Origin: Roseibacillus persicicus
Lineage (GTDB): Bacteria > Verrucomicrobiota > Verrucomicrobiia > Verrucomicrobiales > Akkermansiaceae
Reading direction: 5' to 3'
Assembly (NCBI RefSeq): GCF_014651675.1
Contig: NZ_BMXI01000005.1
Location: 124,001-188,000, forward strand
Length of the DNA stretch: 64,000 nt
The translations under genes were made by a program, and so were the position numbers. Each line of letters starts with the position of its first letter. The stretch's first letter is position 1. Below, one piece after another: positions 2,804 to 49,750 of the stretch. A model generated the notes under the pieces. That model did no database searches. It had not been told where the DNA came from and worked only from the letters and a program-made list of their open reading frames with translations.

Positions 2804-2885
2804 CCGGACCGCGAGTGCCCCTACTCGCTCCAACGAATCGTCTCTGCAACTCATCATTCAACTAACGAATTGTTCGAGTCCCCAC
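2804..2885. repeat. Repeat element E, copy 1 (82 bp)
   Basis: An 82-bp segment that recurs with few changes at 15981-16062, in both places directly ahead of an AB module. It begins CCGGACCGCGAGTGCCCC and contains a small hairpin, GCGAGTGCCCCTACTCGC. It appears to be the leading module of repeat arrays R1 and R3. Array R2 lacks it. Confidence 0.75.
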
Positions 2886-3554
2886 CGGTAGGGCTGTTTT
2901 GACAAAACAGCCGCGAATGCTCGGGGAAGGTTCTCAGGCTCTTGCCCTTCGTTCGTTCACAGATCCTTCGAGCACCCCAGACCATTCGCGGTCCTTCTAT
3001 CAAAGGGACCCTACCGGAGCATGGACATTCCTGTCCATGAGCAGAGCCCCGGTGAGTCAGAACTTTCGTCAAACACCACCGCGCTTCGGCAAGCTCGAGG
3101 AAACAGATTTGGTGCAGACGGACCGTCCCAAGGACAGGAATGTCCTTGCTCCATCGGTAGGGCTGTTTCGCCAAAACAGGCGCGAATGTTCGGGGAAGGT
3201 CCTCTGGCTCACGCCCTTCGTCCGCGAGAGAACCCTTCGAGCACCCCAGAGCTTTCGCGGTCCTTTTATCAAAAGGACCCTACCGGAGCATGGACATTCC
3301 TGTCCATGAACAGAGCCCCGGTGAGTCAGAACATTCGTCAAACACCACCGCGCTTCGGCAAGCTCGAGGAAACAGATTTGGTGCAGACGGACCGTCCCAA
3401 GGACAGGAATGTCCTTGCTCCATCGGTAGGGCTGTTTCGCCAAAACAGCCGCGAATGTTCGGGGAAGGTCCTCAAGCTCTCGCCCATTGTTCGCTTGCTG
3501 ATCCTTCGGCTACCCCAGACCATTCGCGGTCCTTTTGTCAAAAGGACCCTACCG
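2886..3554. repeat. Repeat array R1: AB-C-AB-C-AB
   Basis: Three AB modules begin at 2886, 3155 and 3424, a spacing of exactly 269 bp. AB is 131 bp and C is 138 bp. AB starts CGGTAGGG and ends CCCTACCG. Inside are a hairpin GGCTGTTTTG/CAAAACAGCC, an inner stem CCGCGAATG/CATTCGCGG and a second hairpin GGTCCTTTT/AAAAGGACC. C begins with GGAGCATGGACATTCCTGTC and ends with its approximate complement, GACAGGAATGTCCTTGCTCC. The array lies between the 3' end of rtcA and the 5' side of the HtrA gene. Open frames running through it arise from the repeat and do not look like genes. Confidence 0.9.
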
Positions 3555-3728
3555 ATGGGCATCGATGGTGCGGGGAGGTCTTTGGTAGTTTGGAGACTTT
3601 GACTCCTTGATTCGTGGCGACCCTCTGGTCGAGCAAGCAAGCTTTGCTCTTCCCGGGAGCGACAAAGAACGAACCCATCCACCCCAGAGCGGCAGCAAGC
3701 GGCACGCACTCCAGAAAGTCCTCACTCG
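3555..3728. repeat. Repeat element D, copy 1 (about 171 bp)
   Basis: A closing module found also at 16194-16364 and from 16496. It starts with a short palindrome of the form CGATG-n-n-CATCG, holds a GAGCAA...TTGCTC hairpin, and ends in the run GGCAGCAAGCGGCACGCACT. It always follows an AB module directly, in place of C. Confidence 0.75.
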
Positions 3729-3769
3729 CAGTGGGGCGGCTCTCTGAAAATTCTCACGATTGATACGCT

Positions 3770-4789
3770 CTAACAGCTTATCCGAAACAGTCCGCCGTCT
3801 TCGTCTTCTATCGAGAACTTCACCGGCAAAAACTTTTCGATGATGGAGACGTTGGTGGGGACGTGGGCGTCTGGGGCGGTGGTGGTGATTTCGCCTCCGC
3901 CAGCCAAGGCCATGGGCAGCAAAAGCTGGTCGGCCAGATGGCGTCCCACAGCCGCGCGGGTGTTCATGAAGGTCGCCATCGATTTGCCCATTCGATGGCC
4001 GATTTTTTCCGCGCTTTGTCCGCGTTCGCCGCAGCCGCTGACCATTTCGCAGCCATTTGCAAAGTGTGCCTCCGCATAGCCGATCAACCCTTGTCCGGGG
4101 CCCTCGTCGCGATGTTCGATCTTGCGCTTCTCACACGTCCAAGCCTTTCCCACGGCATCCATCAATCGCGAGGCAACCGAATCCGAAACCTGACGCGAGA
4201 TTACTCGCAGGCTCGTCGCCTGCAACTCGCCTTGTTCCGTGAAGTTCACCTTCCCGAGTCCCGCAGTTGGAGAAATTCCAGCCTCCAGAATCCCGCCGCC
4301 CGTGGGGGCGAAACCTGTTTCTACTAGACGGATAGTAGCTTCTGCCCCGAACTTCTTCATCGCGGGCAGAAAGACCTGTTCCACAAAGTCAAAAGGCGGA
4401 GCGAGGGGATTGTGGGTCCCTCCCGAAAGACGTAGCGTCGATTTGCCCTTTGCCGTCCAAAGCGCTGGTAACAAAGTTTGCAGCAAGAGAGTGGTGCTCC
4501 CCGCAGTGCCAATCGCGAACTCATAGTCGCCCGACTGAATCTCTCCCGCGCGAAAGACCAGTTCGGTCGACCCCAGCTCCGCGCCATCAGCGGTTCCCTG
4601 CGAGATCTCCACCGCGGCCTTCACGCAGGTCAAGTGCTGCCGCATCAGGCCCGGCTTCGAGCGCTGGCCGCGGATATGAGTCATCCGAAACGGTTGTCCC
4701 GTCACCATCGCCAAGCTCAGCGCCGTGCGCAGCATCTGCCCACCACCTGACTGGCCATTCAATTGAATCAATTTCATCTTGCTACTCAA
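3770..4789 (-). CDS. rtcA: RNA 3'-terminal phosphate cyclase
   Basis: A 339-residue protein that converts RNA 3'-phosphate ends to 2',3'-cyclic phosphates using ATP. The N-terminal signature NGQSGGGQMLRTALSLA and the run GTAGSTTLLLQTLLPALW are typical of RtcA. The C-terminal motif ADQLLLPMALAGGG is followed by DAHVPTNV, in which His309 occupies the position of the adenylylated histidine of E. coli RtcA (His309). Length matches the family. It lies about 150 bp downstream of rtcB on the same strand, the classical rtcBA arrangement, so the two probably form an RNA repair operon. The gap holds no obvious terminator. Confidence is high. Confidence 0.95.
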   Translation of the reverse strand: MSSKMKLIQLNGQSGGGQMLRTALSLAMVTGQPFRMTHIRGQRSKPGLMRQHLTCVKAAVEISQGTADGAELGSTELVFRAGEIQSGDYEFAIGTAGSTTLLLQTLLPALWTAKGKSTLRLSGGTHNPLAPPFDFVEQVFLPAMKKFGAEATIRLVETGFAPTGGGILEAGISPTAGLGKVNFTEQGELQATSLRVISRQVSDSVASRLMDAVGKAWTCEKRKIEHRDEGPGQGLIGYAEAHFANGCEMVSGCGERGQSAEKIGHRMGKSMATFMNTRAAVGRHLADQLLLPMALAGGGEITTTAPDAHVPTNVSIIEKFLPVKFSIEDEDGGLFRISC

Positions 4790-4937
4790 AAAAGTTCCCA
4801 GCCCAAGCCCGCGTCAAATTCTGTCCAATCCTGTCCAAAAATAACAAAGCCCTAGTCCTTCGCTTTCCCAAAATTGGACCAGAACGAATAGAATAAACAG
4901 GAAATCCCATTCACCCCATCCCTTCTGGTCCTTTCTC

Positions 4938-6500
4938 TCAATCATCGGCTTCCGCCGAGTCCTTAATCACAAAGCGTGCCTCCAGCTTCGCCACCGTCTT
5001 GGCCAGTCCTGCCGCCTCCACGCTATTGAGCACGTCCGCGAAGTTCTTGTAGGCATCCGGCGACTCGTCGATGGGATACTTTCGGCTGTTGTAGAGGATG
5101 TCCGCCGAATCGAATTCCGCATCCACGGCAGCTTGGTCCAAAGTTTGGGCGGCATGCTTTCGACCCATCTGACGACCAGCTCCATGGTTCACCGACCACG
5201 CGGTTCGCTCGGCTCCCCCTTGCGCCACCATCACCACCGAACCATCGCGAGGATTTCCTGGCAGCAGAATCGGGTGTCCGGTTTCGGCAAAGGGCGTTCC
5301 CGCGAGCGAGAAGTGGCCCCCAGGCACCGCGCGGGTCGCCCCCTTGCGGTGAACCCAAGCCTTGCGGCCCTCGACGATCTCCTCCCGCGCAATGTTGTGC
5401 GAGATGAAGTAGACCAGCTTTCCAGTCGTTCCCGGGAGGACCTCTTGGAAGGCCTCTAACACCAGCGCGTTGATCAGGAGGTGGTTCACCGTCGCAAAGT
5501 TCGCCCCCAGCGCCATGTCATCCAGATAGGCATTGGCCTCCGGGGTTCCGAGGGGCGCGTAGACCAGCTTCTTGTCTCCGGCTGGGTAGGGGATGCCCCA
5601 CTTGTTGAACATCGTTTCCAAGTCCTTGAACTGGGCGCAGGCCAAGATGTTTCCGAATCCGCGCGACCCGCAGTGACTAAGAAAAGATACGTGGCCATCC
5701 TTTAGGCCGAACACCTCGGCGGTTTCTTTCGCCGAAGGAAGGTCCAGTATTCGGGTGATCTCGCACTCGCCAAAGTGGTTGCCTCCTCCATAGGAACCGA
5801 GCTGTCCAATCTTGTCGCCAAAGTTCTTCACGCGCTTGGTTTCCAGGATGAAGTCGAGTCGCTTTCGCAAGCTCTCCGCTGTCCCGTCATGTCCCAAGTG
5901 CGCCGAGTCCTCGCAGCGCTCCGCCCATTCCACCGGGATGCCCAAGGCTTCGCAGACGGCAGGCGAAGCGCCTTCGGTCACGACCTGGATGCCGAGCTCT
6001 TTGGTGAACTTGCGTCCCTTTTTCACGCTTCGGGTTCCGCGTCCCGCGCCAGTCGGAGTTCGCTCCGTGATGGCATCGATGAGCGCACGGCGAACCGACT
6101 TGTCGGCGACGGCTTCTTCGGGGATATCGGTTTGCAAGAGTGACATCGAGCACTTGATATCCACGCCCACCGGACCTGGATAGATGTGAGTCGGCGACAC
6201 CATCACGCAACCGATGGGGGCCCCGTAACCAGCGTGCCCGTCGGGATTGAGAATCACCTCGGTCACCCCGGGCGACATGCGGGAGTTCACGATTTGTTGG
6301 AGGCAAGTGTCGTCGAACGAGTTTCGGATGGCATCATTGCCGATCACCGTGATGGGTTTGCCGGAGTTGTCAGGAAGAGGGATAAAGCCGATGGCCTCAT
6401 CCGTCTGATGGATCTTGATTCCCGAGCTCTTGGTTAGAGGGGCAGGGGAAGAGAGGGGTTGGGAGATATTGTTCATCGGGTCTAAGGGCTTGGTTTTCAT
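4938..6500 (-). CDS. rtcB: RNA-splicing ligase RtcB (3'-phosphate/5'-OH RNA ligase)
   Basis: A 520-residue RtcB, which joins 2',3'-cyclic phosphate or 3'-phosphate ends to 5'-OH ends using GTP and Mn2+. Metal ligands known from the family are present: Asp114 and Cys117 in VGVDIKC, His242 in GGNHFGE, His276 in SHCGSRGFG and His368 in SHNIARE. His439 in VNHGAGRQ fits the guanylylated histidine. The protein is longer than E. coli RtcB (about 408), with an N-terminal extension of about 30 residues and insertions in the body. The first in-frame ATG gives MKTKPLDPMN; an internal ATG nine codons on is possible. The upstream region has a sigma-54 signature, as in E. coli where RtcR controls rtcBA. 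No rtcR gene lies in the window. Confidence 0.95.
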   Translation of the reverse strand: MKTKPLDPMNNISQPLSSPAPLTKSSGIKIHQTDEAIGFIPLPDNSGKPITVIGNDAIRNSFDDTCLQQIVNSRMSPGVTEVILNPDGHAGYGAPIGCVMVSPTHIYPGPVGVDIKCSMSLLQTDIPEEAVADKSVRRALIDAITERTPTGAGRGTRSVKKGRKFTKELGIQVVTEGASPAVCEALGIPVEWAERCEDSAHLGHDGTAESLRKRLDFILETKRVKNFGDKIGQLGSYGGGNHFGECEITRILDLPSAKETAEVFGLKDGHVSFLSHCGSRGFGNILACAQFKDLETMFNKWGIPYPAGDKKLVYAPLGTPEANAYLDDMALGANFATVNHLLINALVLEAFQEVLPGTTGKLVYFISHNIAREEIVEGRKAWVHRKGATRAVPGGHFSLAGTPFAETGHPILLPGNPRDGSVVMVAQGGAERTAWSVNHGAGRQMGRKHAAQTLDQAAVDAEFDSADILYNSRKYPIDESPDAYKNFADVLNSVEAAGLAKTVAKLEARFVIKDSAEADD

Positions 6501-6537
6501 GTTTTTAAAGCCAGCCGAATTGCTAGCGGGATACCTA

Positions 6538-6556
6538 ATGGCATTCGTCGTGCCAA
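6538..6556 (-). promoter_or_regulatory. Candidate sigma-54 (-24/-12) promoter of rtcBA
   Basis: Read on the minus strand the sequence is TTGGCACGACGAATGCC. The sigma-54 consensus is YTGGCACG-N4-TTGCW, so the -24 half matches fully, the GG-N10-GC spacing is exact, and the -12 half has two changes (ATGCC for TTGCW). Transcription would start about 12 bases beyond the GC, leaving a leader of roughly 30 bases before the rtcB ATG. E. coli rtcBA is driven by sigma-54 and RtcR, so the location makes functional sense. Confidence 0.6.
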
Positions 6557-6693
6557 GATTGTTCTGTTTTTCTTAAGTCTTTTATTTTAAGTGGATTTCG
6601 GATTTTTAATGGTGTAAGTAAGGAAGGTCTTGTTTCTTGTTTTGTAGCATTTAAGAGAACAAAGTAGAAAAAATGAGATGGTGGGTAGGGGTG

Positions 6694-7986
6694 CGGTAGG
6701 GCTGTTTCGCCGAAACAGCCGCGAATGTTCGGGGAAGGTCCCTAGGCTTACGCCCTTCGTCCGCGAGAGAGCCTTTCGAACAGGCCTGAACTTTCGCGGT
6801 CCTTTTATCAAAAGGACCCTACTGGAGCATGGACATTCCTGTCCATGAACAGAGCCCCGGTGAGTCAGAACATTCGTCAAACACCACCGCGCTTCGGCAA
6901 GCTCGAGGAAACCGATTTGGTGCAGACGGACCGTCCCAAGGACAGGAATGTCCTTGCTCCAGCGGTAGGGCTGTTTTGCCAAAACAGCCGCGAATGTTCG
7001 GGGAAGGTCCTCTAGTTCACGCCCGTCGTCCGCGATAGAATCCTTCGAACACCCCAGAGCTTTCGCGGTCCTTTTATCAAAAGGACCCTACCGGAGCATG
7101 GACATTCCTGTCCATGAACAGAGCCCCGGTGAGTCAGAACTTGCGTCAAACACCACCGCGCTTCGGCAAGCTCGAGGAAACCGATTTGGTGCAGACGGAC
7201 CGTCCCAAGGACAGGAATGTCCTTGCTCCAGCGGTAGGGCTGTTTCGCCGAAACAGTCGCGAATGTTCGGAAAAGGTCTTCTGGTTCACGCCCCTCGTCC
7301 GCGAGAGAGCCTGTCGAACAGTCCAAACTACTCGCGGTCCTTTTATCAAAAGGACCCTACCGGAGCATGGACATTCCTGTCCATGAACAGAGCCCCAATG
7401 AGTCAGAACTTTCGTCAAACACCACCGCGCTTCGGCAAGCTCGAGGAAACCGATTTGGTGCAGACGGACCGTCCCAAGGACAGGAATGTCCTTGCTCCAG
7501 CGGTAGGGCTGTTTTGCCAAAACAGCCGCGAATGTTCGGGGAAGGTCCTCTAGTTCACGCCCGTCGTCCGCGATAGAATCCTTCGAACACCCCAGAGCAT
7601 TCGCGGTCCTTTTATCAAAAGGACCCTACCGGAGCATGGACATTCCTGTCCATGAACAGAGCCCCGGTGAGTCAGAACTTTCGTCAAACACCACCGTGCT
7701 TCGGCAAGCTCGAGGAAACCGATTTGGTGCAGACGGACCGTCCCAAGGACAGGAATGTCCTTGCTCCATCGGTAGGGCAGTTTCGCCGAAACAGCCGCGA
7801 ATGTTTGGGAAAGGTCCTTAGATTCACGCCCGTCGTCCGCGATAGAATCCTTCGAACACCCCAGAGCTTTCGCTGTCCGTTTATCAAAAGGACCCTACCG
7901 GAGCATGGACATTCCTGTCCATGAGCAGAGCCCCGGTGAGTCAGAATCTACGTTAGACTCCACGGCGTCTTGGCGAGTCCGTTGCG
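6694..7986. repeat. Repeat array R2: five AB-C units
   Basis: AB modules begin at 6694, 6963, 7232, 7501 and 7770, each exactly 269 bp after the last. Units differ by scattered substitutions, several of which keep base pairing, such as TTTTG/CAAAA against TTTCG/CGAAA in the first hairpin. The last C element loses similarity after about 7950. The array fills the space between the 5' side of rtcB and the 3' end of the DedA/ATP-grasp gene. There is no element E or D here. Overlapping open frames in four of the six frames arise because 269 is not a multiple of three and carry no codon signature. Confidence 0.92.
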
Positions 7987-12301: not shown

Positions 12302-12420
12302 GGATGGCAAGCTAGCAAAGGGACAGGGAGGGCGCAAACTGGGAGGGCGAAATTGATGATTTGGGAAAAAGTAGAAAAAACGACTTTCGCCCAATGGCAT
12401 TTGCGATTACGGCTGTCCTT

Positions 12421-12510
12421 GCCAGGGGCCGCGGAGTGCGAGCTGGTGAACCCGGTCAGGACGGAAACGTAGCAGCCGTAGCTTGTCTCTCATTGCCGTG
12501 GTCCCCTGGT
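12421..12510 (+). ncRNA. ffs: Small signal recognition particle RNA
   Basis: The universally conserved SRP core is present: GGTCAGGACGGAAACGTAGC followed by AGCC, matching the domain IV GGTCAGG...GGAA...AGCAGCC pattern of E. coli 4.5S RNA. An outer helix pairs CCAGGGGCCGCGG at the 5' side with CCGTGGTCCCCTGG at the 3' side. A run of T (GGTTTTTCTTTTTT) follows and would serve as terminator. The RNA binds Ffh and targets membrane proteins. Exact ends are approximate. It is divergent from the MauE/DoxX-like gene. Confidence 0.9.
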
Positions 12511-12517
12511 TTTTCTT

Positions 12518-14344: not shown

Positions 14345-14457
14345 CGGCGCATGGATATTTCTGTCCATGGGCAGAGCCCCGGGGTGTCAGAGGTTTTGGG
14401 AGGGACGGATTTGGTGCGGACGGACCGTGCCAGGGACAGGAATGTCCCTGCTCCATG
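14345..14457. repeat. Solo repeat element C (R4)
   Basis: A single diverged C element without AB. CGCATGGATATTTCTGTCCA near the left end and GGGACAGGAATGTCCCTGCT near the right end are the two complementary arms. It lies directly between the terminator and the start of the C39-like protease gene and may have brought part of that gene's leader. Confidence 0.75.
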
Positions 14458-15965: not shown

Positions 15966-15980
15966 AAAGCTGAAGGCTCC

Positions 15981-16062
15981 CCGGACCGCGAGTGCCCCCA
16001 CTCGCCCCACCGAATCGTCTCTGTAACTCATCACTCGACTAACGAATTGTTCTAGTGCCAAC
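15981..16062. repeat. Repeat element E, copy 2
   Basis: Second copy of the 82-bp leading module, beginning 15 bp after the stop of the C39-like gene. Differences from copy 1 are single substitutions; the GCGAGTG...CACTCGC hairpin is kept. Confidence 0.75.
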
Positions 16063-16666
16063 CGGTAGGGCTGTTTTGCCAAAACAGCCGCGAATGTTCG
16101 GGGAAGGTCCCCGGGTTCTCGCGCCTCGTCCACTCACCGATTCTTCGACCACCTCAGACCACTCGCGGTCCTTTTGTCAAAAGGACGCTACCGATGTGCA
16201 TCGATGGTGCGGGGAGGTCTTTGGTCGTTTGGATATCTTCTCTCCTTGCCTCGTGGTGGCCATCTGGTCGAGCAAGCAAGCTTTGCTCTTCCCGTGAAGG
16301 ACAAAGAACGAACCCATCCACCCCAGAGCGGCAGCAAGCGGCACGCACTCCAAAAGGCCTCCACCGGTAGGGCTGTTTTGACAAAACAGCCGCGAATGTT
16401 CGGGGAAGGTCCCCGGGTTCTCGCGCTTCGTCCGCTCACCGATCCTACGAGCAACTCAGACCACTCGCGGTCCTTTTGTCAAAAGGACCCTACCGATGCG
16501 CATCGATGGTGCGGGGAGGTCTTTGGTCGTTTGGATATCTTCTCTCCTTGATTCGTGGTGGCCATCTGGTCGAGCAAGCAAGCTTTGCTCTTCCCAGGAG
16601 AGTCAAAGAACGAACCCATCCACCCCAGAGCGGCAGCAAGCGGCACGCACTCCAGAAGGCCCCCAC
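16063..16666. repeat. Repeat array R3: AB-D-AB-D
   Basis: AB modules at 16063-16193 and 16365-16495, each exactly 131 bp, are followed by D modules at 16194-16364 (171 bp) and 16496 to about 16666. The second D keeps a perfect 12-bp palindrome CGATGCGCATCG at its start. The array lies between the C39-like gene and the sulfatase gene. It shows that D can replace C as the module between two AB copies. Confidence 0.88.
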
Positions 16667-49583: not shown

Positions 49584-49750
49584 CGGTAGGGCGATTGAGA
49601 TGTGAGCTCGCGGAATGCTGGTGGAGTGGACGTCTCGTCCACTTGTGGCTCGACGGAATGGGTGGACGAGACCTCCACCCCACTCGCGAGAGAACGGTTC
49701 GGATTTTCCAGAGCTCTCGCGGTCTTTTAGTTAGAAGGAACCGACCGGAG
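49584..49750. repeat. Diverged repeat region between convergent genes (R6)
   Basis: AGCGGTAGGG on the left and GAACCGACCGGAGCG on the right recall the borders of AB, and TCTCGCGGTC recalls its inner stem. In the middle GGTGGAGTGGACGTCTCGTC pairs with GTGGACGAGACCTCCACC. The region separates two gene ends that face each other and may act as a two-way terminator. Confidence 0.6.

Follow-up and report, generated by a model that had tools for sequence, protein, structure and literature searches.

A GGTAG-tagged hairpin element in tandem arrays of Roseibacillus persicicus is probably a REPIN that alternates with a second, differently tagged REPIN

Introduction

A 64,000-nucleotide stretch of the Roseibacillus persicicus genome (contig NZ_BMXI01000005.1, positions 124,001 to 188,000; hereafter the window) carries three arrays of a 131-bp module, AB, which opens and closes with inverted copies of the tag GGTAG and could fold into four stems. 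What kind of element is this: a structured RNA, a mobile element or the product of local repeat amplification? A first-pass annotation, made from the sequence alone, knew of no named family with such an arrangement and proposed either a structured RNA or a large element resembling a REPIN (a doublet of repetitive extragenic palindromic sequences, REPs, that forms a hairpin) or a miniature inverted-repeat transposable element (MITE). We conclude, at a probability of roughly 0.9, that AB is a REPIN: two inverted REP units of the GTAG type with their GGTAG tags outside, probably spread by a REP-associated tyrosine transposase (RAYT) and then multiplied in tandem. AB is probably a small hairpin element that was once mobile.

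Results

The ten AB modules first described are all present on the forward strand, each exactly 131 bp long and located by alignment and by covariance-model match: copies 1 to 3 at 2886–3016, 3155–3285 and 3424–3554, copies 4 to 8 at 6694–6824, 6963–7093, 7232–7362, 7501–7631 and 7770–7900, and copies 9 and 10 at 16063–16193 and 16365–16495. The repeat period of 269 bp holds for the first two arrays but is 302 bp in the third, which also lies outside the range of 2804–7986 originally assigned to the family, although it was named in the accompanying text. Each half of AB is a REP in which GGTAG precedes a hairpin that starts with GG and ends with CC, with CGCGA after it. The two halves, mutually inverted and with their tags outermost, form a head-to-head dimer that can fold as one unit; 77 bases separate the tip hairpins, 63 of them outside the four stems. 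These stems are indeed present, the outer one and the first hairpin sharing a GG, and without overlap the helices measure 6, 9, 7 and 9 bp (31 pairs).

Copies of AB exist well beyond the window. In the whole assembly (5.28 Mb in 92 contigs, 97.5% complete), BLAST returned at least 41 matches, other copies reaching E-values as low as 5e-40, and a covariance model found at least 55 copies of 118 bits or more, the window included. Both counts are lower bounds, 40 candidates having been scored by BLAST (40 of 63 for AB, and 40 likewise for the modules C and E described below) and 150 of 2238 first-look candidates with the model; the latter was made from 42 AB copies, which score highly by construction, and 13 of the 55 matches lie outside that set. 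Below the strong matches come one of 62.7 bits and then weaker ones, among them GGTAG elements other than AB. Length is tightly kept: among 49 extracted copies, 42 are 131 bp long, three 132, two 133, and one each 124 and 125. This recurrence is not due to chance, given the BLAST E-values and the number of GGTAG hairpins in the window (19, of which 18 are within AB, as against 19 in total over 20 mononucleotide shuffles of the window). Three copies stand together on contig C4 (102.4–103.2 kb). A weak covariance-model match also lies in the window at 49619–49747 (28.4 bits, E 0.0037); its right half is like that of AB and its left part is not, perhaps marking a decayed or chimeric copy.

AB occupies 23 sites distributed over 14 contigs (the 62.7-bit match included), with differing neighbour genes, and all 23 are intergenic: 11 convergent, 10 same-strand and 2 divergent, by a rough longest-open-reading-frame method that disregarded frames lying largely inside an array. 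Copies are more alike within arrays (identity 0.886) than between them (0.796; 0 of 2000 permutations), and yet, of 45 copies, 32 have their nearest copy within their own array and 13 in another, a pattern that fits arrival at a site followed by local multiplication of a composite. Within-array similarity and regular periods would also be expected of satellite DNA, immobile and generated by local slippage or unequal crossing-over alone, but so many sites with differing neighbours argue against it and we give this explanation almost no credence. The dispersal, the inverted ends and the size of about 130 bp could instead suggest a MITE, moved through terminal inverted repeats by the cut-and-paste action of an ordinary DDE transposase. 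We consider this very improbable: the four copies outside arrays have no target-site duplication (no direct repeat longer than one base abuts both ends) and share no word longer than 3 bases in their 15+15 flanking bases, and a hairpin inside each end with a GTAG tag are features of RAYT elements; no search for a DDE transposase was made. Of the double proposal of a REPIN- or MITE-like element, it is the REPIN part that stands, by its testable features and by the RAYT-clade tag described below. Integron attC sites have the ends RYYYAAC and GTTRRRY. An attC array was considered too, and the consensus ends of AB, CGGTAGGG...CCCTACCG, do not fit it; no search for an integrase gene was made.

A RAYT with the same tag as AB exists in this genome. 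RAYT-like genes number 14 by matches with Pfam PF01797 and 16 with NCBIfam NF047646, some of these being two pieces of one gene; the Pfam list is incomplete, since PF01797 does not match the RAYT in question. This GGTAG RAYT (L092, contig C3, 150.05–150.57 kb) reaches 80.4 bits with NF047646, whose cut-off is 80; in the search that gave the 16 matches it has 78.6 bits by itself and 80.8 when its neighbours in the frame are included. It is flanked by five complete 169-bp GGTAG REPINs, two on one side and three plus a partial one on the other, and a strict hairpin scan gives zero at this locus because the stems carry a one-base bulge. The REPtron as a whole (C3, about 149.7–151.1 kb), in which the REPINs stand in tandem beside their own RAYT, resembles AB in its CGGTAGG tag and in its hairpin tip, TTTG-CC-AAA or TTTCG-CC-GAAA; its REPINs are unlike AB in their length of 169 bp, their period of 181, their bulged stems and their spacer. 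Judging from the shared tag, this RAYT may have moved AB, although its own REPINs differ in stem and spacer.

The association between tag and transposase is seen across relatives. All eight closest homologues of the GGTAG RAYT in the family, one of which is a gene with an internal stop, have 3–9 GGTAG hairpins within 1.5 kb. A wider set comprised the best 80 of 116 homologues, whose loci are not mutually independent and which come from the Verrucomicrobiota, Lentisphaerae and Kiritimatiellae groups, with three exceptions, one from the Bacteroidetes, one from the Hydrogenedentota and one unnamed bacterium. In a count of the hairpins that follow each 5-mer, 58 of these 80 loci had at least two for GGTAG; the next 5-mer, GTAGG (24), picks up those hairpins with a one-base offset, and the next unrelated one reaches 3 loci. 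In those 58 loci, 224 of 225 stems start with GG, as in AB. It is on these hairpin counts that we assign to AB the tag of the GGTAG RAYT clade.

AB itself was sought in other genomes and databases. BLAST found it in two of 38 relatives' genomes counting this one, the other contributing two matches of 27–28 bases (loci L085 and L086, examined for tag letters), and in none of three genomes of the same genus. The covariance model, under stricter filters, matched eight of 60 genomes, again counting this one, and the matches inspected in the other seven are GGTAG elements of different sequence. The left REP as an exact pattern with a perfect stem had no match in a one-per-species genome collection, which may omit the window's own genome and in which near variants would escape. 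Plasmids gave no match with window positions 2886–3154, nor did viral contigs with an exact pattern. At gathering thresholds, Rfam matched none of the arrays; its only hit in the window is the bacterial small signal recognition particle (SRP) RNA, RF00169, at 12420–12514 on the forward strand (62.8 bits).

Over 42 copies, 92.8% of the cells of the four-helix structure are paired, as against 38–56% with partners slid, and changes on both sides affect 7 pairs and 19 cells, as against at most 6 and 7 slid; shuffles reach these values in 7 of 500 cases for pairs and in 0 of 500 for cells, and the covariation score is 0.076, as against 0.056 in shuffles and at most 0.048 slid, bearing in mind that the structure was derived from the same sequences and so is favoured in the slide control, while kinship between copies inflates the shuffle control. 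The paired change from TTTTG/CAAAA to TTTCG/CGAAA, first taken as a sign of selection on structure, is real: in the 42 copies the pair is U-A in 31, C-G in 7, U-G in 1 and unpaired in 3, and copies 3155 and 3424 are changed on one side only. In the inner stem, the two middle pairs are missing from 30 and 20 of the 42 copies. Three AB copies were folded as DNA: the four-way junction is optimal for two of them and a long hairpin for the third (z -4.6 to -6.8). Conservation is higher at the ends (0.95 and 0.915) than in the middle (0.80).

Covariation above controls, the presence of some pairs that vary to G-U and a location mostly downstream of genes, with so few divergent sites, could also point to a structured non-coding RNA or to a cis-acting element of mRNA, such as a terminator or stabiliser, under selection as RNA. 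The covariation fits a single-stranded DNA hairpin equally well, and several results make an RNA quite improbable: Rfam is silent on the arrays; between 2500 and 8300 of the window, terminator-like sites (6, versus 7.1 in shuffles) and promoter-like sites (1 versus 1.5) are at chance level; AB lies at many sites beside differing genes and BLAST does not find it in the three same-genus genomes; the covariance model is matched by the reverse strand too; and the tag follows a RAYT clade. The structured RNA of the first-pass annotation is thus left without support.

In the arrays AB is combined with three further modules, all on the forward strand, in the order first described: E-(AB-C)2-AB-D, (AB-C)5 with its last C partial, and E-AB-D-AB-D. 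C, recognized by BLAST, lies at 3017–3154 (also folded, the first G of its tag being the last G of AB), 3286–3423, 6825–6962, 7094–7231, 7363–7500 and 7632–7769, with the partial element at the array end at 7901–7967 and a lone one without AB at 14349–14456 (found by BLAST in two pieces and read by eye). It starts with GGAGCATGGACATTCCTGTCCATG and ends with the inverted form, which makes C a second REPIN, tagged GGAG. It has at least 58 matches in the genome, some at places without AB, and a RAYT gene on contig C2 is preceded by two complete C-type dimers and followed by three. Of 19 RAYT loci not belonging to the GGTAG clade, 4 showed GTAG and 4 GGAG, the C locus being counted under both because AB lies near, so that the GGAG rule for the RAYT of C rests on the C locus and a few relatives. 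D (3555–3723, 16194–16364 and 16496–16666) was located by sequence match and has 37 matches in the genome; as a folded element, tested at 16194–16364, it does no better than its shuffles (z +0.86). E (2804–2885 and 15979–16062, by BLAST; at least 33 matches) has a hairpin GCGAGTG...CACTCGC in related copies.

Directly 3' of the 55 AB copies stands C in 27 cases, D in 21 and neither in 7; labels at L010:4711 and L010:8709 (C to D) and L021:5407 (other to D) were corrected by eye, and the D at L018:5403 is a short remnant not matched in the D search. On the 5' side, the end of C precedes AB in 30 of 55, usually with two variable bases between. E and D also form tandem arrays without AB (L098, L099), which suggests that AB sits inside an older E-D unit. 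The window's arrays, (AB-C)n and AB-D, are tandem arrays of REPs alternating with other motifs, and since C is a second REPIN with a tag different from that of AB, they are hybrid and akin to bacterial interspersed mosaic elements (BIMEs). The near-constant AB-C join, with C or D directly behind most AB copies, would also fit a composite mobile unit of two REPINs, each cuttable by one of two RAYT lineages and spreading better than either part; we regard this as an outside chance.

A separate observation concerns three RAYT (Y1/HUH) domains of this genome placed in frame inside genes whose reading frame is unbroken: leucyl-tRNA synthetase (LeuRS; L094:3648-6725, reverse strand), methionine synthase MetH (L095:3645-7184, forward) and a type I restriction subunit (L096:4668-8207, reverse). 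A LeuRS protein search of three same-genus genomes shows the insert in one, at 79% identity over the entire length, whereas the gene is uninterrupted in the remaining two. By domain matches (L154, L155, L156, L157, L158, L159, L160, L161, L163), relatives also have in-frame RAYTs: in LeuRS, MetH, IspG (GcpE) and the restriction subunit (HsdR) in other genera of the family, and, in same-genus genomes, in MetH and in adenosine deaminase, the latter matched in its C-terminal part; the 674-residue protein of L164 contains a RAYT and, at 1e-5, no further Pfam domain. A tree of 18 RAYT domains clusters the IspG and adenosine deaminase inserts according to host gene, with good support, and does the same for those of MetH, with moderate support, while those of LeuRS and the restriction subunit do not resolve in this way. 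The LeuRS RAYT (L040/L094) has a tagged hairpin, GGAGCACAGGCGTCCCGCCTGTG, on both sides, and the peptide RSTGVPPV occurs twice in the protein; the hairpin seems to be read as this peptide, a REP serving as coding sequence. A different tagged hairpin, GTAGCTGAGGC..GCCTCAG, flanks the restriction-subunit RAYT (L043/L096) on both sides and probably belongs to a further REP family. Excerpts of one paper describe REPs, not whole RAYTs, inside genes including those of tRNA synthetases (PMC3733652); among the matches listed, and by title and start of abstract, it alone comes near in-frame RAYTs, and a literature search combining tyrosine transposase and leucyl-tRNA synthetase gave no paper.

Discussion

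AB joins a GTAG-type tag before a palindrome, an inverted dimer, dispersed extragenic copies and a RAYT of the same tag in the genome, all of which characterize a REPIN. We hypothesize that single-stranded AB DNA would adopt a four-way junction or else a single long hairpin, whose tag and hairpin would be recognized by a RAYT (TnpA-REP, a Y1/HUH single-strand transposase) that cuts and rejoins the strand, as in the cleavage and strand-transfer mechanism described in PMC8266576. By such activity AB would once have reached its intergenic positions, at each of which it would then have multiplied in tandem with its neighbour. This neighbour is either C, the GGAG REPIN that belongs with a different RAYT lineage, or D, found together with E in AB-free arrays as well. 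The order of these events is what we infer from sequence comparison, as any effect on genes would be.

A number of observations weigh against AB being a REPIN spread in this manner: (i), AB flanks none of the 16 RAYT-model matches in this assembly, the nearest RAYT being the C-flanked one, which has an AB roughly 1.2 kb beyond its end, and the next more than 26 kb away; (ii), the REPINs of the GGTAG RAYT share tag and hairpin tip with AB but have other stems with a one-base bulge; (iii), the tag rule has exceptions, as GGTAG hairpins are found at none of three more distant homologues, 22 of the best 80 loci have fewer than two, and 2 of 18 other RAYT loci have some; (iv), 48 of 55 AB copies are joined to C or D, and AB may therefore not move alone; (v), the number of pair types is unexceptional (66 of 500 shuffles are as high), and the RNAalifold consensus, while retaining outer stem and first hairpin, lacks the inner stem and has the last hairpin displaced.

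The kind of element is not without precedent. According to excerpts of the papers cited here, tandem REPIN clusters (PMC3116915) and hybrid BIMEs (PMC2817692) are on record, and the statement that no named family has this grammar thus fails as to kind. In Pseudomonas fluorescens SBW25, REPINs are REP doublets forming hairpins, and they resemble AB as inverted REP pairs with conserved ends and a less conserved spacer with compensatory changes, and in their tandem clusters that include flanking DNA (GI–GIII tandem arrays; PMC3116915). AB differs in sequence and phylum, in its 131 bp, in its frequent junction with C or D and in that an AB-flanked RAYT was not found among the 16 model matches. REPs of the GTAG superfamily, for which 24 family consensuses are given, are reported to have a GTAG tag, stems of 6–13 bp and short loops, to form head-to-head dimers mostly 20–100 bp apart, to lie mostly between convergent and same-strand genes and to abound in Opitutus terrae, another member of the Verrucomicrobia (PMC3733652, in excerpt); AB, compared by these described features, is like them. 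Judging by the listing, that paper is the only one on the subject among those returned by a literature search for REPs with Verrucomicrobia. The hybrid BIMEs of Stenotrophomonas hold REPs of two different RAYTs in one array, as do the AB-C arrays (PMC2817692, in excerpt), whereas the latter alternate whole REPINs with two tags, mostly with one base common at the join. AB itself is new and species-specific while its kind is known, since REPINs, their tandem clusters, GTAG dimers and hybrid BIMEs are in print and AB was found nowhere else in the searches described.

The GGTAG-GG tag rule holds for a RAYT clade mainly in Verrucomicrobiota and their relatives, meaning that REPIN families can be assigned to their RAYTs by sequence. 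The AB-C arrays represent a natural system of two REPIN families outside Proteobacteria, in a genome that combines differently tagged RAYTs with their arrays, which bears on how RAYTs choose their REPs.

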